Shown here piece by piece: positions 3,996 to 16,202 of a DNA stretch of 64,000 nucleotides. A program made the position numbers and the translations under genes. This DNA is from Flavipsychrobacter sp. (GTDB taxonomy: Bacteria > Bacteroidota > Bacteroidia > Chitinophagales > Chitinophagaceae). The notes under the pieces are model-generated. The model worked only from the letters and a program-made list of their open reading frames with translations. It made no database searches and was not told where the DNA came from. The first letter of the stretch is position 1. Each line of letters begins with the position of its first letter. The stretch covers positions 248,001 to 312,000 of the forward strand of contig JAFIGV010000019.1 of the NCBI GenBank assembly GCA_017849575.1, written 5' to 3'.

Positions 3996-4050
3996 AAGCG
4001 ATCAAAAGCATTACTGTTACCCGGCTTTGTTCGACATGGTAGTGAAGCGG

Positions 4051-4113
4051 TAGCGGATTTCAAATCCGCTTCATCCTTTCGTTCAGGATGCCCTTCGGAA
4101 CATCCTGAACAAC
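4051..4113 (+). repeat. Double-palindrome intergenic repeat, copy 1
   Basis: The copy contains two inverted repeats in series: AGCGGATTT-C-AAATCCGCT (perfect 9-bp arms) and GTTCAGGATG / CATCCTGAAC (perfect 10-bp arms) around a 10-nt loop that includes a CTTCGG core. A second copy lies at 4772. The pair brackets yefM-yoeB in the same orientation. It looks like a REP-type element. Confidence 0.85.
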
Positions 4114-4143
4114 TCGGAAATCATTGACATCCCATTTGAAAAA

Positions 4144-4176: not shown

Positions 4177-4431
4177 ATGAGGGTGGTGAACTATTCTGAG
4201 TTTCGCAACAAACTTGCCGAAAACCTGAACGCAGTGAATGACGATAGGGAAATAGTAGTGGTATCGAGGGCGAAAGGGAAAAACGTTGTGATCATAGACC
4301 TCGATGAGTATAATGCATTACAGGAAACCATCCATCTTACGGGCTCCAAAGCCAATCGTCAACGACTTGATGAAGCTGTGGCTGAAATGAAAGCAGGAAA
4401 ATTTTCGAAGCACAAGCTTATCGAAAAGTAG
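4177..4431 (+). CDS. yefM: Antitoxin of YefM/Phd family
   Basis: An 84-residue Phd/YefM antitoxin. The N-terminus MRVVNYSEFRNKLAENLNAV and the following VVVSRAKGKNVVIIDLDEYNALQET are the DNA-binding fold of the family, including the conserved V-x-I-D-L-x-E-Y-x-x-L-x-E-T stretch. The charged C-terminal tail (after residue 55) would wrap and neutralise the toxin. It is separated from the toxin gene by 2 nt, the usual tight coupling. The family represses its own operon, and paired nonamers just upstream are candidate binding sites. Confidence 0.93.
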   Translation: MRVVNYSEFRNKLAENLNAVNDDREIVVVSRAKGKNVVIIDLDEYNALQETIHLTGSKANRQRLDEAVAEMKAGKFSKHKLIEK

Positions 4432-4433
4432 TC

Positions 4434-4691
4434 ATGGAACTTGTGTGGCAAACCCGTGCCTGGGAGGATTATCTCTACTGGCAAGATCACGACACAAAAG
4501 TATTACAGCGTATTAACGCACTTATTAAAGACACTTTACGATCGCCCTTCAAAGGCATTGGCAAACCTGAGCCTCTAAAAGGAGACTATTCGGGTTTCTG
4601 GAGCCGACGGATTACGGATGAGCATCGTTTGGTTTATGCTGTGAAAGACGCCCGGCTGCATATACTCCAATGTAGGTTTCATTATTTGTAG
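4434..4691 (+). CDS. yoeB: mRNA interferase toxin YoeB
   Basis: An 85-residue RelE-superfamily toxin that cleaves mRNA on the ribosome. The residues known to be catalytic in E. coli YoeB are all present at the same numbers: Glu46, Arg65, His83 and Tyr84, within KPEPLKGDYSGFWSRRITDEHRLVY and the C-terminal RFHY. One extra Leu follows the terminal His-Tyr. The protein appears intact, so the module is probably functional. It is preceded by yefM and followed by the second repeat copy at 4772. Confidence 0.94.
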   Translation: MELVWQTRAWEDYLYWQDHDTKVLQRINALIKDTLRSPFKGIGKPEPLKGDYSGFWSRRITDEHRLVYAVKDARLHILQCRFHYL

Positions 4692-4771
4692 AACGGCGAC
4701 TTTTGTTTGTTTTCCTATGTTGGCGAAGCGCATGTCGAACAAAAGGATGAAAAGGATTTTTACATAAGCCA

Positions 4772-4835
4772 TAGCGGATTTCAAACCCGCTTCATCCCTT
4801 TCGTTCAGGATGCCCTTCGGAACATCCTGAACAAC
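4772..4835 (+). repeat. Double-palindrome intergenic repeat, copy 2
   Basis: Same element as at 4051, in the same orientation, with a single-base insertion and a mismatch in the first palindrome (AAACCCGCT arm). The second palindrome (GTTCAGGATG / CATCCTGAAC) and its 10-nt loop are identical. It sits between yoeB and the Lgt-like gene. Confidence 0.85.
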
Positions 4836-4888
4836 CCGCAACCCGCCAACTTTCCGCATTCAAAGAAAGAAGCTAACTTAAACCTGAA

Positions 4889-5662
4889 ATGCATTTTCCG
4901 GTTACCATATCCGTTGCAGGCACACCCGTCTTGTTGCACGGCATTTGCGAATTTCTGGGCATCTTTCTGGCATTCAGGTACTATCTGTGGCTCAAAAAGA
5001 AAACGGGCGACTTCATTGCTCCTGCGCACAGAATCACCATCGTTATAGCGGCAACGTTTGGAGCGGTATTGGGTGCAAGGTTGCTGGGCACAGCCGAAAA
5101 TATTCCCGCGTGGATGCATGCTTCAAGCCAATGGAACTATTTCTACGGCAATAAAACATTGGTCGGCGGTTTGTTGGGCGGACTTGCTGGTGTGGAGCTG
5201 GTGAAGCGAATGATGGGTGAGCGCCGGAGTAGTGGCGACTTATTTGTCTTTCCACTTTTGTTGGGAATGATTGTGGGCAGGATCGGTTGTTTCTCTGCCG
5301 GTGTTTATGAAGAGGTATATGGCTATCCATCTTCAATGCCCTGGGCAATAGATTTGGGTGATGGCATCCCGCGGCATCCGGCTACGCTTTATGAAATAGT
5401 ATTTTTGTTGCTTTTATGGATATTCCTTTTTCAATTGGATAAGAAAAAGACACTTGCCGAAGGTGCTTTGTTCAAACTGTTTCTGATCTCGTATCTGATC
5501 TTTCGCCTGTTGCTCGATTTCATTAAGCCGCATGTTGTCTATGTCGGTCCGTTTGGCGCTATACAATTAGCCTGCATGGGTGGTTTGCTTTACTATTTCA
5601 GATATTTCGTTCGCCCAAGGTTATTATTCAACCCAAAAAGATTTCCGCATTATGCCGGTTAG
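4889..5662 (+). CDS. Lgt-like integral membrane protein with altered active site
   Basis: A 257-residue multi-pass membrane protein of the prolipoprotein diacylglyceryl transferase fold. Recognisable landmarks are LVGGLLGG (91-98), GRIGCF (130-135) and PRHPATLYE (161-169), matching HGGL, GRxGNF and PRHPxQLYE of Lgt. Two residues important in E. coli Lgt are changed: the His of HGG (His103) is Val92, and the Asn of GNF (Asn146) is Cys134, while the Arg (Arg143 equivalent, Arg131) is kept. Classical transfer of diacylglycerol to lipobox cysteines is therefore doubtful. The gene overlaps the radical SAM gene by 11 nt, so they probably form one functional unit. A housekeeping lgt is expected elsewhere. 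A plain divergent Lgt remains possible. Confidence 0.8.
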   Translation: MHFPVTISVAGTPVLLHGICEFLGIFLAFRYYLWLKKKTGDFIAPAHRITIVIAATFGAVLGARLLGTAENIPAWMHASSQWNYFYGNKTLVGGLLGGLAGVELVKRMMGERRSSGDLFVFPLLLGMIVGRIGCFSAGVYEEVYGYPSSMPWAIDLGDGIPRHPATLYEIVFLLLLWIFLFQLDKKKTLAEGALFKLFLISYLIFRLLLDFIKPHVVYVGPFGAIQLACMGGLLYYFRYFVRPRLLFNPKRFPHYAG

Positions 5663-7055
5663 AAAATATACGTACTACGACTACACCCTCAGTCTTTGTC
5701 CCACCTGCCTGCAAAGGATCGAAGCGAAAATAGTTTTTGAAAATGACCGGGTGTATATGCTCAAAACCTGCCGCGATCATGGCTTTTTTAAGGTGCTGAT
5801 CGCAACGGACATTGAATATTACAAGAACATCCGCAACTACAACAAACCATCCGAAACACCGTTGCGCTTCAATACGAAAACCGAATATGGCTGTCCCTAC
5901 GACTGTGGTCTGTGTACCGATCATGAACAGCACAGTTGTCTTACCCTTGTAGAAATCACCGATCGCTGCAACCTTACCTGCCCTACCTGCTATGCCATGT
6001 CTTCTCCACACTATGGCAGACATCGTACCCTGGAAGAAGTAGAAAGGATGCTGGATATAATTGTGGCGAATGAGGGAGAACCGGATGTGGTGCAGATCAG
6101 CGGCGGTGAGCCGACCCTTCATCCACAGTTTTTTGAGATACTCGATATCGCCAAACGCAAGCCTATCAAGCATTTGATGGTCAACACAAATGGCATTCGC
6201 ATAGCTCAGGACCCGGGTTTTGCGGAGCAGCTTGCCGGCTATATGCCCGACTTTGAGATCTACTTGCAGTTCGATTCTTTCAAGCCTTCGGTGCTTGAGG
6301 TGATGCGCGGAAAGGATTTAACAGAGGTGCGTCAAAAAGCCATCGAAAAGCTCAATGCACTCAACCTTTCCACCACACTTGTGGTCACGCAGCAAAAGGA
6401 TTTGAATGAGGATGAAACCGGAAAAATAATTGAGTATGCCTTACAGCAACGCTGTGTGCGCGGCGTTACTTTTCAGCCGGTGCAGATAGCAGGAAGGTTT
6501 GAACATGATCATTCCTCGAGACGCCTCACACTTACCGATGTCCGGGATAATATTCTTTCACAAACCGGTGTTTTTCAACCCAACGATCTGATCCCTGTGC
6601 CCTGCAATCCTGATGCGCTTGCTATGGGTTATGCCCTCAAGCTGAACGGTCAGGTTTTTCCGCTTACGCGATATATTGATCCGGCACAATTGCTCAGCAG
6701 TAATTCGCGAAACACTATAGTTTACGAACAGGACAAAGGGCTCCATGAGCAGTTGTTCAACATCTTCAGCACGGGAATTTCTGTAGATCGGGTTACTGAA
6801 AATTTAAATCAGCTCTTGTGCTGTCTGCCGCAGGTGTATGCACCGGGACTCTCTTACGACAACCTTTTCCGTATCATCATCATGCGCTTTATTGACGCGT
6901 ATGATTTCGACGTGAGAGCCATCAAAAAATCCTGCGTACACATTGTAAGCAAACACGGCAAGATCATTCCCTTCGAGACCATGAACCTTTTTTATCGTGA
7001 CGAAAAAGAAGCTTATCTTAAAGATCTGAAACTTAATCTGCAACCGATTTATTAA
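5652..7055 (+). CDS. Radical SAM enzyme of class D / tetraether-synthase-like type
   Basis: A 467-residue radical SAM protein. The cluster motif is CNLTCPTC (Cys106, Cys110, Cys113), with GGEPT at 151-155. The N-terminal domain holds extra cysteines: CPTC (16-19), a C-x-x-H at 40-43, and CPYDCGLC (81-88) followed by His91, His94 and Cys96. This N-terminal pattern of two Cys pairs, TCxxHG, then CGLCxxH, is the one seen in MJ0619-type proteins, first described as class D radical SAM methylases and later shown in archaea to join lipid tails (Tes). Substrate cannot be inferred from sequence alone, but the Lgt-like neighbour suggests a lipid or lipoprotein. ATG at 5652 is chosen; the upstream in-frame extension lies inside the Lgt-like gene and lacks homology. 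Confidence 0.85.
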   Translation: MPVRKYTYYDYTLSLCPTCLQRIEAKIVFENDRVYMLKTCRDHGFFKVLIATDIEYYKNIRNYNKPSETPLRFNTKTEYGCPYDCGLCTDHEQHSCLTLVEITDRCNLTCPTCYAMSSPHYGRHRTLEEVERMLDIIVANEGEPDVVQISGGEPTLHPQFFEILDIAKRKPIKHLMVNTNGIRIAQDPGFAEQLAGYMPDFEIYLQFDSFKPSVLEVMRGKDLTEVRQKAIEKLNALNLSTTLVVTQQKDLNEDETGKIIEYALQQRCVRGVTFQPVQIAGRFEHDHSSRRLTLTDVRDNILSQTGVFQPNDLIPVPCNPDALAMGYALKLNGQVFPLTRYIDPAQLLSSNSRNTIVYEQDKGLHEQLFNIFSTGISVDRVTENLNQLLCCLPQVYAPGLSYDNLFRIIIMRFIDAYDFDVRAIKKSCVHIVSKHGKIIPFETMNLFYRDEKEAYLKDLKLNLQPIY

Positions 7056-7058
7056 TCT

Positions 7059-7343
7059 ATGCGCAAGAGCTTCACCAAAATAGTGCTGGTAAATTTGTTG
7101 ATCACGCTAGTGATTGCCGCTTTCGATTATTTTCAGGGGCACCGGATAAAATCTGCAATGTTTTCAGGGGGAGTCACCTTGCTGGTTCTCGCCATTATCA
7201 ATTTTGTGTTGGCTATCATCATTGCCATTGTCAATACTGTTGGTAAAAAAGAGAATGACTATGTAGGTTCCTTTATGCTTTTTGCAGCACTGGCACTATT
7301 GTGCAGTTTTACACTTTGTTCTTCTGGTTTTCAACTCAACTAA
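7059..7343 (+). CDS. Small three-TM membrane protein, unknown function
   Basis: A 94-residue hydrophobic protein with three probable membrane segments (about residues 8-24, 35-61 and 70-86) and a short polar loop GKKENDYVGS before the last. I do not recognise a family. It begins 3 nt after the radical SAM stop codon, so it is almost surely co-transcribed with the Lgt-like and radical SAM genes and may be an accessory subunit. A bidirectional hairpin follows at 7415. Confidence 0.75.
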   Translation: MRKSFTKIVLVNLLITLVIAAFDYFQGHRIKSAMFSGGVTLLVLAIINFVLAIIIAIVNTVGKKENDYVGSFMLFAALALLCSFTLCSSGFQLN

Positions 7344-11618: not shown

Positions 11619-14600
11619 ATGAAGGTATTTTTACGCGCTGCGATCATTTTTCTATTTAGTTTCAGCGGTCAGTTATCAGCACAGACGCCTGTTGCCAACT
11701 TTACTGCAACACCACTTTCTGGATGTGCCCCACTAATCGTACAATTCACCTCAACTTCTACCGGCAATCCCACCTCCTACCAATGGACCCTGGGCAATGG
11801 TGTAAACACCGTACAACAAAATCCTTCCACCGCCTATACTACGCCGGGCACCTACACCGTCACCCTTACCGTTACCAATGCCAACGGTAGCGACACAAAG
11901 ACGGTAACCAACTACATCACCGTTGTGCCGGCACCTACCATTTCCTTTTCTGCACTCGATACGGACAACTGTCCGCCCTTTCAGGTGCAGTTTGTAAACT
12001 CCACCACCTTCAATTCTACGGGTGCGGGTGTTTATAACTGGAGTTTTGGCGACGGAAATACTTCCGCACTGACCAGCCCGCAAAACATATACTATACACC
12101 CGGGCAATACACGGTTACACTAGTAGCTACCAATGGCGCCGGGTGCACTTCCTCACTTACCAAGCCCGGTTTTATAAAGGTATTTTCGCCGCCTGTAGGT
12201 AACATCACTGCAAATCCTACCAGTTACTGCGGCACTCCGGCAAATATTAATTTTACCGCATCTGCTACCGGTACGGGTCCTTACACGTACAACTGGGATT
12301 ATGGTGATGGAGGAACAGGTGTGGGTGTGGCCACGTCGCATGTGTATAACCTGCCGGGTATTTACACCATTACGCTGTACGTGACGGATGGAAATGGGTG
12401 TATGGACACGGTAGTGAAGCCCAACTATGTAGCTATCGGAACTCTGGGGGCGAACTTTACAACAGCGCCTGTCACGGGTTGCGCCAATGTGCCGGTTCAG
12501 TTCAACAACACTTCTGCCGGCGGTACCAGCTATTTCTGGAATTTCGGCGATGGGAATACGAGCACATTAGCCAATCCTACCCATACTTATGCTGCCGGGG
12601 GCACTTACAATGTGAAGCTGGCTATCTATGATGGGCCCTGCGGCGATTCTGTGACCCTGCCGGTGACTATCAATCCTGCACCGAATGTAAATTTCAGCTT
12701 TACCCCCAATCAACCCTGCCCCGCTCCGACTCAGGTGCAGTTTAATAATCTAAGCAATGGGGCTACCTCCTATTATTGGAACTTTGGTGATGGGAATATC
12801 TCAAATTTGGCCAGCCCCAGCCATACCTATGCGACAAATAATTATTTCCCGGTAGGTATGACCGCTACAAATGCTTTCGGATGTAGCTCTACAAAGTGGG
12901 ATACGATAAAGATCCATTCCCTCGGTGTATATGTGACTCCGGCAAATCCCAAAGGTTGCGTACCCTTTAACGTGGGTTTTGGCGAAATGATTTATGCTGT
13001 TGACCCGATAACTCAAGGGTGGTACACTTATCCATATTCTATTTCCAGTTATTCCTGGAATTTCGGTGATGGCGGCACCTCAAACAGTCAGTCACCCAGT
13101 CACACCTACGTCAATCCCAACAATGTATATAATGCAGCACTCACCGTTACAACGAGCAATGGTTGTACCGCTACCGGTATTACTTTGGTAAGTGTAGGTG
13201 ATAAGCCAACTGCATCTTTTATTGGATTTCCGGACACTCTTTGTGTCAATACCAAAGTTCATTTTGTGAACACCACTACCGACACGGTGCTGACCACCAG
13301 CTATACCTGGCAGATGGGCGATGGAAACGTGTACCTCGGAAAGACACCTGACTACGCCTACACGCACTCAGGTATCTACAATGTATCGCTTATTGCCAGC
13401 AACTTTGGTTGTACGGACACGTTTACGGTGGATTCAGCGGCTGTTATTCTCGCGCCAACGGCTATCTGGTCAGAAAAATATAGTTGTGACACGCCACTTT
13501 TTGTACAGTTTTACGATACCCTTAGTGTAGAGCCCACTTCGCATATCTGGTATTTTGGAGATGGCAATACGGATACCTCAAAGAATCCCGGCCACCTTTA
13601 CGCCAGTTTGGGCACGTACACCGTTTCTCTGGTCACTTTCAACAATATTTATGGTTGTTCTGATACCGAAACCCGAACGATTGAGCTGATAGATCCGGCC
13701 CTGGATTTCGTTACCCCGGATACCGCTATTTGTCAGGGCGACTCCATTCTGTTCACCCCGAGCTACAGCCACACACCGTCGGGCTATACCTGGTTGATCA
13801 ATGGAAGCCTTCCGATATGGCCCTATGGACCCGCATCCAATCCTAATCCTTCTTCGGGGGCGTGGGGGTACCGGTTTAATCAAAAAGGTATATACGATGT
13901 ATCAGTTTACACAACCGATATACACGGTTGCAACGATACCACCACACGGCCACACTATGTGCTGGTGGCCAAACCACAAGTGCTGTTTTCGGCTACGCCC
14001 ACGGTAGGTTGTGTACCCATGAGCGTACTCTTTGAAGATACCAGTGTACACCTGCCGGGCGTGTACAGCGTAACACGAAACTGGAATTTTGGAAACGGAA
14101 CAGCTACCACAACAAATGACACCATTTCAAACCTTTATCCGGTAGCCGGCATTTACAACGTAACCCTTACAGTTACAGACAATGTAGGTTGTACCGATGT
14201 GCTGAGCCGGATCGGGTATATTGATGTAAGAAAACCTGTTGCCGCCTTTTCGGTAGATGACTCTACAGCATGTATCGGACAGCAGCTCACCTTCACAAAC
14301 GCTTCCAGCGGAGTGAATCCCGGTTATCTCTGGGATTTTGGCGACGGCACCACTTCTACCAATGCAGCACCGGTGAAGTCTTATTCCCAAACCGGGCTTT
14401 ACGATGTGAAGTTGATCGTAACTGACGCCAGCGGATGTCAGGACAGTTTGATCAAAACCGCATGGATCAGTGTCACCAAGCCCGATGCCCAGTTTGCTTC
14501 CAGCGATACACAGGCGCTATGCCCACCCTTGTCTGTAGTGTTTAATAATCTTTCGGTCGGTGGTACATCCTACGCATGGGATTTTGGAAATGGAAGTCTG

Positions 14601-16202
14601 TCTGCCCTTCAGAACCCCACTACTATTTATGCTACCCCCAACTTGTATCAGGTAAGTCTTGTAGTGACAAATGCTGATGGTTGTACGGATACGGCGTACG
14701 GGCATGTCAATGTATTGGGTTATGCCGGCGGACTCAGTTACACACCGGTGACGGGTTGTTCGCCGCTTACCGTAGAGTTCCAGTCGAATATTTATGGTGT
14801 AGCTACGATGATCTGGGATTTTAATGATGGGGTCACGGCGCCACTGAATGGAAAGGACACCATATCGCACACCTTCATAACGCCGGGTAAATACCTTCCA
14901 CAGTTGATCCTCAGCGACAATGCAGGTTGCACTACGGCAAGTTCCGGACTGGATACGATATATGTAGATAGTGTGTGGGTCGGTTTTGTGGCGGCACCGC
15001 CCTGCGTCAACACGCCAGTCGTGTTTACAGACACTTCCTATACACTATTTGCGCCGATATCGGGCTGGGTTTGGAAGACAATTAATGGCCAGACGAGCAC
15101 TGCAGCTTCACCCTCTTTTGTATTTCCCAACACCGGTAGTTTCCCTGTTACTTTAATAGCCAAGAGTGCATGGGGATGTACCGATAGCGTTACCCGTTCC
15201 ATTACGATCTATGACCTACCAGTAGTCACCGCAGCTTTTGATACACTTATTTGCAAGGGCGATGCCACTACGATATCGGCTGCGGGAGCCAATACCTATA
15301 GCTGGTTGCCCTCCACGGGCCTGGCCTGCGCTACCTGCCAAAGCACTTCAGCAGCTCCGGTAACAACTACCCCATATGTTGTGACCGGCACCGACCAACG
15401 CGGGTGTAAGAATAAAGATACCGTGGTCATCTCCGTAAAATATGTAACCACCAGCTTTGCCGCACCCGGCGGGGGAATTTGCGCAGACAGCATCTTTCAG
15501 TTGAAAGCCTGGGGCGCCGATCGCTTTGAGTGGTCGCCCTCCCAAACGCTCGATGACTATACGAAACCGGATCCTATCGCGAGTCCGGACCGGACTACCA
15601 CCTATGTAGTAACTGCCTGGGAGGCAAGCTGTCTTCCCGATACACATCAGGTGAAGGTGATCGTTTATCCAAGGCCGGACGTGGACGCAGGTAAGGATGA
15701 TACAATTATGGCAGGAACAAGTGTAGTGCTGATTGCCACAAGCAGTGATTTTGTGAGTTTCCTGTGGTCACCGGAGACTACCCTGAGCTGTACTTCGTGT
15801 ACGGCACCATCAGCCAGCCCGCGTGTTACCACTACCTATAAGGTAATTGCTACCTCAGATAAAGGATGCCGCGCTTATGATTCGGTGACGATACATCTGA
15901 TGTGTGACAATAGCCAGGTGTTTATCCCCAACACATTTACGCCGAATAACGATGGCCAGAATGATGTATTCTACCCACGAGGGGAAGGCATGAAGAGCAT
16001 CACCTCCTTCCGTATTTACAACCGATGGGGTGAGCTTGTTTTTGAACGTCGTGGTTTTCAACTTAACGATGCCTCATCAGGTTGGGACGGAACATCGAAA
16101 GGTGCAACGCTCGGATCCGACATCTTTATCTACAGCATAGAAGGAATTTGTGACAGTGGTGAAACTTTAATCTGGAAAGGAGATGTTACCCTCCTTCGAT
16201 AA
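11619..16202 (+). CDS. Giant PKD-repeat surface protein with T9SS type-B sorting domain (paralogue 1)
   Basis: A 1527-residue secreted protein. It has a signal peptide (MKVFLRAAIIFLFSFSGQLSAQ) followed by about 14 PKD-like repeats, each with a YxWxFGDG-type core and a Y-x-V-x-L-x-V strand, then three Ig-like repeats with S-P-T-T-x-Y type strands, and a C-terminal domain beginning around CDNSQVFIPNTFTPNNDGQNDVF. This last domain is the gliding-motility-associated (CHU_C, type B) sorting signal of T9SS. Most repeats start and end near a cysteine. Cell-surface adhesion or gliding is the likely role, but no specific ligand is evident. The PorP/SprF gene follows after 12 nt. Confidence 0.92.
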   Translation: MKVFLRAAIIFLFSFSGQLSAQTPVANFTATPLSGCAPLIVQFTSTSTGNPTSYQWTLGNGVNTVQQNPSTAYTTPGTYTVTLTVTNANGSDTKTVTNYITVVPAPTISFSALDTDNCPPFQVQFVNSTTFNSTGAGVYNWSFGDGNTSALTSPQNIYYTPGQYTVTLVATNGAGCTSSLTKPGFIKVFSPPVGNITANPTSYCGTPANINFTASATGTGPYTYNWDYGDGGTGVGVATSHVYNLPGIYTITLYVTDGNGCMDTVVKPNYVAIGTLGANFTTAPVTGCANVPVQFNNTSAGGTSYFWNFGDGNTSTLANPTHTYAAGGTYNVKLAIYDGPCGDSVTLPVTINPAPNVNFSFTPNQPCPAPTQVQFNNLSNGATSYYWNFGDGNISNLASPSHTYATNNYFPVGMTATNAFGCSSTKWDTIKIHSLGVYVTPANPKGCVPFNVGFGEMIYAVDPITQGWYTYPYSISSYSWNFGDGGTSNSQSPSHTYVNPNNVYNAALTVTTSNGCTATGITLVSVGDKPTASFIGFPDTLCVNTKVHFVNTTTDTVLTTSYTWQMGDGNVYLGKTPDYAYTHSGIYNVSLIASNFGCTDTFTVDSAAVILAPTAIWSEKYSCDTPLFVQFYDTLSVEPTSHIWYFGDGNTDTSKNPGHLYASLGTYTVSLVTFNNIYGCSDTETRTIELIDPALDFVTPDTAICQGDSILFTPSYSHTPSGYTWLINGSLPIWPYGPASNPNPSSGAWGYRFNQKGIYDVSVYTTDIHGCNDTTTRPHYVLVAKPQVLFSATPTVGCVPMSVLFEDTSVHLPGVYSVTRNWNFGNGTATTTNDTISNLYPVAGIYNVTLTVTDNVGCTDVLSRIGYIDVRKPVAAFSVDDSTACIGQQLTFTNASSGVNPGYLWDFGDGTTSTNAAPVKSYSQTGLYDVKLIVTDASGCQDSLIKTAWISVTKPDAQFASSDTQALCPPLSVVFNNLSVGGTSYAWDFGNGSLSALQNPTTIYATPNLYQVSLVVTNADGCTDTAYGHVNVLGYAGGLSYTPVTGCSPLTVEFQSNIYGVATMIWDFNDGVTAPLNGKDTISHTFITPGKYLPQLILSDNAGCTTASSGLDTIYVDSVWVGFVAAPPCVNTPVVFTDTSYTLFAPISGWVWKTINGQTSTAASPSFVFPNTGSFPVTLIAKSAWGCTDSVTRSITIYDLPVVTAAFDTLICKGDATTISAAGANTYSWLPSTGLACATCQSTSAAPVTTTPYVVTGTDQRGCKNKDTVVISVKYVTTSFAAPGGGICADSIFQLKAWGADRFEWSPSQTLDDYTKPDPIASPDRTTTYVVTAWEASCLPDTHQVKVIVYPRPDVDAGKDDTIMAGTSVVLIATSSDFVSFLWSPETTLSCTSCTAPSASPRVTTTYKVIATSDKGCRAYDSVTIHLMCDNSQVFIPNTFTPNNDGQNDVFYPRGEGMKSITSFRIYNRWGELVFERRGFQLNDASSGWDGTSKGATLGSDIFIYSIEGICDSGETLIWKGDVTLLR

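Follow-up and report, generated by a model that had tools for sequence, protein, structure and literature searches.

The window analysed here, a stretch of 64,000 nucleotides from the genome of a Flavipsychrobacter sp. (assembly size 3.61 Mb, 32 contigs), contains three genes that encode an Lgt-like protein, a radical SAM protein, and a small membrane protein (Table 1). The ORFs for the Lgt-like and radical SAM proteins share 11 nucleotides, and the small gene follows the radical SAM gene after a gap of 3 nucleotides; all three genes lie on the forward strand, overlapping or nearly touching as the original prediction had described. That prediction paired the first two genes functionally, took the three as one unit, and saw in them a possible system for radical modification of a membrane lipid or lipoprotein anchor, with a degenerate Lgt and with the small protein as a membrane partner. 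We find that the trio forms a conserved module across Bacteroidota, recurring far above chance; no description of such a module was found in the literature searched.

Table 1. Genes and key codons of the module, with positions in the window.
Feature	Position	Strand	Remarks
Lgt-like gene, 257 aa	4889..5662	+	PF01790 match
Codon of Cys134, Lgt-like protein (E. coli Lgt Asn146 position)	5288..5290	+	Cys in 76/76 module-type rows
Radical SAM gene, Tes/TrsS kind, 467 aa	5652..7055 (ATG start)	+	Rubredoxin-type site, N-terminal [4Fe4S] site, radical SAM core, C-terminal domain
Small three-helix membrane protein gene, 94 aa, proposed substrate	7059..7343	+	
Codon of tail Cys87, small protein (proposed acceptor)	7317..7319	+	Tail Cys in 74/77 + 26/26 Cys-blind picks

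The Lgt-like protein belongs to the Lgt fold family, matching PF01790 with an E value of 1.4e-23 and a score of about 83.6 to 83.9 bits (cut-off, 24.9). The genome contains two PF01790 matches. The other is a 441-residue open frame scoring 107 bits, which, as the sole other match in the genome, is presumably the housekeeping copy. Against the NCBIfam lgt model (cut-off, 118.9 bits), the Lgt-like protein scores 49.8 bits; this shortfall says little, because the genome's other copy, at 58.6 bits, fails too. Alignment confirmed the residues read from the sequence beforehand, namely, the RHPATLYE and GR motifs, with Val92 at the position of E. coli His103 and Cys134 at that of Asn146. R131, E169, Y202, and R206 fall at the positions of E. 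coli R143, E202, Y235, and R239. We then considered 76 module-type rows, consisting of the window and 75 of the best 80 of 556 named loci (match above 200 bits). The positions of Arg143, Glu202, Tyr235, and Arg239 are occupied by Arg, Glu, Tyr, and Arg in all 76 rows of the alignment, and the Asn146 position is Cys in every one; at the His103 position, Val, Met, Leu, Ile, or Ala is found but never His. An apparent exception to the GR motif, given for locus L168 by a motif scan, was rejected, as the alignment shows that the match had fallen elsewhere.

Seven non-module Lgt rows were aligned as well. Five of the seven, the genome's other copy included, have Tyr and Cys at the His103 and Asn146 positions, and two (L024 and L275) have His and Asn; none has Tyr in the Tyr235 column. 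Since the genome's other Lgt has Tyr and Cys at these positions, the absence of His103 and Asn146 does not in itself indicate degeneracy, and the term "degenerate Lgt," which had been drawn from it, is rejected: four further rows share the same pair. Changes of His103 and Asn146 inactivate E. coli Lgt, according to two reports (PMC4728403, PMC8689077). This result is not transferable to the module copies without a test, so that diacylglyceryl transfer by the Lgt-like protein is still possible. A tree of 32 Lgt rows, with long branches at L026, L058, and L060, is divided by one branch into 22 module-type and 10 other rows (support, 96/90; found in 94% of bootstrap trees); the Lgt-like protein lies outside the clade of the second copy in its genome. 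Compared with Lgt itself (phosphatidylglycerol:prolipoprotein diacylglyceryl transferase), it is alike in its match to Pfam LGT and at the R143, E202, Y235, and R239 positions, but it belongs to a separate clade, has Val for His103, and is linked to a proposed target that has no lipobox.

The radical SAM protein carries the core motif CX3CX2C (C106/C110/C113) and, N-terminal of it, at least 10 further Cys or His residues (C16, C19, C40, H43, C81, C85, C88, H91, H94, and C96), in keeping with the six or more noted earlier. In GDGT-MAS/Tes, a rubredoxin site (C9X2C12X20C33X2H36) and an N-terminal [Fe4S4] site (C73, C77, C80, and a His) are described (PMC9433317). The extra Cys and His residues of the window protein map onto these two sites; with the CX3CX2C core, all three Tes features are present. 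Twelve Cys positions are invariant in 22 aligned rows (16, 19, 40, 81, 85, 88, 96, 106, 110, 113, 318, and 428), of which C318 and C428 lie in the C-terminal domain. The His of the rubredoxin site is a Cys in one related row, L058.

The radical SAM protein matches PDB entry 7TOL with an E value of 4.8e-64, and with a seven-row profile the match extends over nearly the whole chain (E value of 3.1e-96). An AlphaFold2 model (pLDDT of 77.1, pTM of 0.83) aligned with 7TOM over 402 residues (Z score of 39.6, rmsd of 2.7), which amounts to the full Tes fold. The best non-Tes match was MoaA (Z score of 19.1); the RiPP maturases SuiB and SkfB matched part of the chain (Z scores of 18.7 and 16.9). No further full-length family stood among the fold matches listed for the model, which does not imply that none exists. 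The AlphaFold models are of middling confidence, with pLDDT values below 50 at residues 84 to 90 and 370 to 399 of the radical SAM model, which is too low for an assessment of the C-terminal cluster site.

Kinship with the MJ0619-type (Tes/TrsS) enzymes, as originally proposed, is thus upheld by sequence and fold, and it is with this type, not with a family of known non-lipid substrate, that the protein groups. Tes (tetraether lipid synthase) couples two saturated lipid tails and so fuses archaeal membrane lipids. The window protein is, however, neither Tes nor TrsS by the NCBIfam models: the Tes model gave 281.1 bits (cut-off, 450), and the TrsS model (NF045646), which gave the best NCBIfam score, 324.1 bits (cut-off, 490). 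None of 395 Bacteroidota genomes passes the TrsS cut-off of 490 bits, and for the function of this radical SAM (seleno)protein the literature searched gave only a table entry, which states none. Tes Met439 and Tyr459 are fully conserved in 1000 archaeal homologues, as reported in PMC9433317. All 16 module-type rows have Met at the position of the labile ligand Met439 (Met411 in the window protein) and Ile at the position of Tyr459 (Ile431), where both Tes-like controls have Tyr; this replacement, together with the score, led us to reject Tes identity. The comparison with GDGT-MAS/Tes (MJ0619; PDB 7TOL and 7TOM) is therefore twofold. The window protein is alike in its full-length fold, its rubredoxin and N-terminal [4Fe4S] sites, its radical SAM core, and the Met at position 439; it differs in its score, in the Ile at Tyr459, in having C96, C318, C390, and C391, which are absent from two aligned Tes-like controls, and in lying beside an Lgt-like gene and a gene for a Cys-tailed protein. 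In the radical SAM tree, the Met439 column of two Tes-like rows is misaligned and was not used, and the L274 branch is very long, with a warning of long-branch joins, so the branching order was not relied on. Two genomes of the phylum, G209 and G438 (loci L272 and L273), encode Tes-type proteins that score 493.8 and 441.9 bits against the Tes model (cut-off, 450) and have Tyr at the 459 position; these genomes have no Lgt-like gene next to the Tes-type gene and none elsewhere at E <= 1e-20. The phylum therefore holds both Tes-type and module-type enzymes.

An HMM survey across Bacteroidota had been suggested as a check on the pairing. In a sample of 395 genomes (radical SAM E <= 1e-60; Lgt-like score of at least 163 bits), the radical SAM gene is present in 31 and the Lgt-like gene in 32, with both in 31. 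Every one of the 31 radical SAM genomes thus has the Lgt-like gene, and 31 of the 32 Lgt-like genomes have the radical SAM gene (Fisher p of 3e-45, kinship ignored). The pairing holds even without close linkage, as in genomes G055, G063, G177, and G410 and in those of loci L141, L156, and L167. The three genes behave as one functional unit, as originally proposed. Left out of the count of 32 were three more genomes with Lgt matches at 75 to 84 bits. In one of these, G238 (locus L274), a small ORF whose product ends in GGMCIFLPQPL separates the Lgt-like gene from the neighbouring radical SAM gene, here a more distant one; the Cys-blind pick described below took an ORF without a tail Cys here, as the Cys-tailed ORF between the genes exceeded the length limit.

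In a family sample of 147 genomes, 20 gave a strong Lgt-like match (L003 to L022, at least 140 bits), and in 17 of them the fetched locus also contains the radical SAM gene. For the remaining three, it lies elsewhere in G063 and G055 and is absent from G031, where the sole match to the small-protein profile is without a tail Cys. Locus L023 (G047) holds an Lgt-like fragment (61.6 bits) in a genome without a radical SAM gene. Among nine genomes reached via named loci, eight have the Lgt-like gene; it was not found in the draft genome of L103, where the radical SAM and small genes are present. Loci L083 to L085, with radical SAM proteins 38 to 40% identical, have the order radical SAM, ICMT-like, DUF4395, Lgt-like, small membrane protein; the ICMT-like (PF04140) and DUF4395 (PF14340) genes were tested by HMM in L085 only and read by eye in L083 and L084. 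The small proteins of these three loci end in FGAC or FGSC followed by 8 to 14 further residues, so the tail Cys is also found beyond the deepest well-sampled split.

The third protein is the best clue to the function of the module. It is a fast-evolving membrane protein of two or three helices that carries a Cys where the last helix ends; the AlphaFold2 model of the window protein (pLDDT of 77.8, pTM of 0.60) has helices at residues 3 to 25, 33 to 62, and 68 to 93. No Pfam family was found for it in a scan of 22 members (the best E value for P0003 was 0.065); the best match of any member, with an E value of 0.00047, was given by one member only and was treated as chance. The median pairwise identity of the small proteins is 21%. 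We scored the tail Cys by picking the nearest small membrane ORF blind to Cys and then asking for a Cys within the last 17 residues. A pick was found in 77 of the 80 named loci, which are the best 80 of 556 and biased to close relatives; 50 of these picks follow the radical SAM gene, and the other 27 sit between the Lgt-like and radical SAM genes. The tail Cys is present in 74 of these 77 picks, against a background of 23/73 (32%) for non-overlapping small membrane ORFs elsewhere in the named loci. In each of the three exceptions (L096, L148, and L153), a further copy does have the Cys; no pick was made in L097, L134 (contig end), and L167. From the phylum sample we examined 30 loci, the window included and three of them among the named 80; a pick was found in 26, all with the Cys. 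As for the four misses, G177 encodes a tail-Cys protein elsewhere, L083 and L084 have one that follows the Lgt-like gene, and the fourth is due to a contig end. The 31st radical SAM genome, G296 (L085), has a Cys-tailed small protein too. G177 has its three genes on three separate contigs, and its small protein nevertheless ends LLTFLTCGGFFTLS. A test that allowed Cys anywhere in the last 31 residues was dropped, as 474 of 809 background ORFs have one.

When 22 members, hand-chosen among those with the Cys, were aligned, only the Met1 and Cys87 columns proved invariant. The invariance of the Cys in such sets (121/121 and 22/22) is circular, the rows having been chosen for a tail Cys (7/129 without one were dropped); the alignments, some ORFs of which may be spurious, thus show only that nothing else but the start Met is invariant, and the blind picks carry the Cys test. 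A Gly four places before the tail Cys is frequent, and other nearby residues vary. The lipobox, [LVI][ASTVI][GAS]C, fits none of 74 tail Cys residues. Lys and Arg make up 0.154 per residue before the last helix and 0.035 after the Cys (122 ORFs). According to the positive-inside rule, which relates positive charge to membrane orientation, this distribution places the tail Cys outside, and it is predicted to lie on the periplasmic side.

At least two tail-Cys small ORFs lie near the two enzyme genes in 19 of the best 80 of 556 loci. Copies without the usual Cys also occur near some loci (L096, L107, L123, L148, and L153), and a fourth copy in L230 has its Cys a few places earlier. The small gene adjoins the radical SAM gene, with the Lgt-like gene elsewhere, in G055, G063, G410, L141, and L156, but not in G177 and L167. 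Across 20 chosen genomes, a profile of the small protein found matches in 9/10 radical SAM genomes and in 0/9 without either gene; leaving out G000, G026, G013, and G034, which gave rows to the profile, 5/6 radical SAM genomes match. A weak extra match in G013 belongs to a longer frame that is unrelated. A single residue kept in a drifting protein, often in several copies and beside two enzymes, one of a Cys-lipidating family, is the pattern of a substrate, and the small protein is likely a substrate rather than a partner. The role of "membrane partner" first assigned to it is probably wrong, in view of its fast divergence around the tail Cys, its tandem copies, and its usual adjacency to the radical SAM gene even where the Lgt-like gene is elsewhere. 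What stands of the original prediction is the module and its Tes kinship; the degenerate Lgt does not, and the membrane partner probably does not.

We consider that the three genes may form a dedicated protein-modification module, in which the Lgt-like protein would lipidate the tail Cys and the radical SAM protein would act on the anchor lipid or the peptide; we put the probability of this reading at roughly 0.4. The small protein of two to three helices would insert so as to bring the end of its last helix to the periplasmic surface of the inner membrane, an orientation suggested by the charge distribution, and would present the Cys within about 16 residues of the C terminus. The Lgt-like enzyme, with its Arg/Glu/Tyr/Arg pocket, would transfer diacylglyceryl from a phospholipid to this Cys. 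The product would be a C-terminal counterpart of the lipoprotein anchor, at a site unexpected for an ordinary Lgt. The Tes-like enzyme would then take hydrogen from an inert carbon, either in the anchor acyl chain or at the end of the hydrophobic helix; to judge by the Tes fold and ligands, this radical step might form a C-C or C-S bond that, for instance, joins the anchor to a second tail. One difficulty is that Tes is soluble and acts on lipids in the cytosol, while the tail Cys is predicted to be periplasmic; the radical SAM protein would have to work ahead of membrane insertion or reach tails inside the bilayer. The genes, their families and fold, their co-occurrence, and the recurrent tail Cys are observed; we infer the roles of substrate and acceptor, the order of steps, and the bond made, and both enzyme steps come from family chemistry. 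The data fit a lipid-tail and a peptide reaction alike. The fullest version, a C-terminal lipoprotein system with a diacylglyceryl thioether on the tail Cys and a Tes-type enzyme that joins the anchor to a lipid or helix by radical C-H chemistry, giving a covalent and possibly membrane-spanning product, is a tentative and less probable extension.

Two known systems invite comparison. With the Lgt/LspA/Lnt lipoprotein pathway, the proposed likeness is a diacylglyceryl group on a Cys where a hydrophobic helix reaches the periplasm; the small protein, however, has its Cys at the C terminus and no lipobox, and a radical SAM enzyme is a third player. C-terminal tags of the MYXO-CTERM kind are alike in that a single invariant Cys near the C terminus marks a processed protein, but there the Cys motif leads the tag and an intramembrane protease acts, whereas here the Cys follows the last helix.

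Several observations stand against lipidation of the tail Cys followed by radical chemistry: Tes Tyr459 is replaced by Ile431, G031 is without a radical SAM gene, no Lgt-like gene was found for L103, some neighbouring copies of the small protein and the blind pick at L274 are without the usual Cys, a tail Cys is present in 32% of background small ORFs, and the invariant Cys could instead serve a disulfide or metal site. A possible though rather doubtful alternative is that the small protein is itself the target of the radical SAM enzyme, which would act in the manner of a RiPP maturase, for example by linking the tail Cys to a nearby carbon as a thioether, with the Lgt-like protein acting afterwards or on another residue. 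In five cases the small gene has kept its place next to the radical SAM gene although the Lgt-like gene is elsewhere, and tandem, fast-evolving copies around one Cys look like precursor peptides; yet the Pfam search gave no RiPP-recognition domain, the residues near the tail Cys vary save for the frequent Gly, and the full-length fold match is a lipid enzyme, with SkfB and SuiB, the RiPP maturases among the more distant fold matches, covering only part of the chain. Somewhat less probable still is that the small protein is a subunit that anchors the radical SAM enzyme at the membrane or gives its Cys to a metal or disulfide site shared with the Lgt-like protein. The neighbourhood is kept in most loci seen and the active-site Cys in all 76 Lgt-like rows, which would suit a subunit, but a binding partner would be expected to keep more than one residue and to come in two or three successive copies only unusually, and the genome's other Lgt has the same Cys with no such partner known.

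The module might also make a free membrane lipid (tetraether-like, a long-chain diacid, or an altered anchor), with the small protein as an accessory. The Tes fold and most Tes ligands are present, and Tes homologues have been proposed for bacterial membrane-spanning lipids (PMC8941075). We regard this possibility as improbable, and no finding here points that way: such a route would call for no Lgt paralogue and no Cys-tailed protein, and the phylum has module-free Tes-type proteins (L272 over the Tes cut-off and L273 just under), whereas the window protein scores far below. That a spare Lgt, which would explain the Lgt fold signature and the retention of most active-site residues, has come to lie by accident next to an unrelated radical SAM gene is hardly credible given the 31/31 co-occurrence, unlinked cases included, and the separation of the Lgt-like clade from the other Lgt rows.

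If lipidation of the small protein with radical chemistry on its anchor or peptide is correct, the module would be a protein modification outside the known lipoprotein route, with radical chemistry near a membrane anchor: an apparently undescribed way to modify a protein, for which the small protein is the likely target. It also touches the question of what Tes relatives do in bacteria without known tetraethers. Among the best 80 of 556 loci, the module occurs in genera with cultured members, including Chitinophaga, Niabella, Chryseobacterium, Sphingobacterium, and Mucilaginibacter. Whatever the chemistry, the recurrent tail Cys makes the role of the bacterial Tes relatives addressable by mass spectrometry of a protein of about 90 residues.

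In the alignment, the presumed housekeeping Lgt of the window's own genome (L001) carries Tyr at the position of E. coli His103 and Cys at that of Asn146, and the same two residues occur in four other Lgt rows of non-module type. Because of this, the catalytic roles accepted for His103 and Asn146 may, to judge by sequence, not hold in part of the Bacteroidota.

One module-type Lgt, on a long branch of the tree, stands alone: neither the radical SAM gene nor a Cys-tailed partner was found in its genome (L022 in G031), and this Lgt is perhaps decaying or serving another role. Two further genes occur in the deep variants of the module, L083 to L085: one is isoprenylcysteine methyltransferase-like (PF04140), and the other encodes a DUF4395 protein with a Cys-rich stretch at its end; of these loci, only L085 was searched with HMMs for the two families.

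Upstream of the module, YoeB scored 123.7 bits against a cut-off of 51.8, and the two copies of a repeat flank the YefM/YoeB pair, as if it were a cassette, inserted or duplicated. Judged by eye, the PKD-like repeat protein is probably a large secreted surface protein.

Features of the window (positions without a handle) and of other loci
Feature	Position	Remark
Repeat, ~75 nt	4045-4119; 4766-4841	two copies
YefM/YoeB toxin-antitoxin pair	4177-4691	just upstream of module
1527-aa protein, many PKD-like repeats	11619-16202	repeats judged by eye
Presumed housekeeping Lgt	L001, G000:C2:383550-384416	
Tes-type radical SAM protein	L272:6864-8321	above Tes cut-off
Tes-type radical SAM protein	L273:7107-8582	slightly below Tes cut-off

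No Lgt-like gene was found in either Bacteroidota genome carrying a Tes-type (tetraether lipid synthase) protein; these two proteins are candidate makers of membrane-spanning lipids in Bacteroidota.
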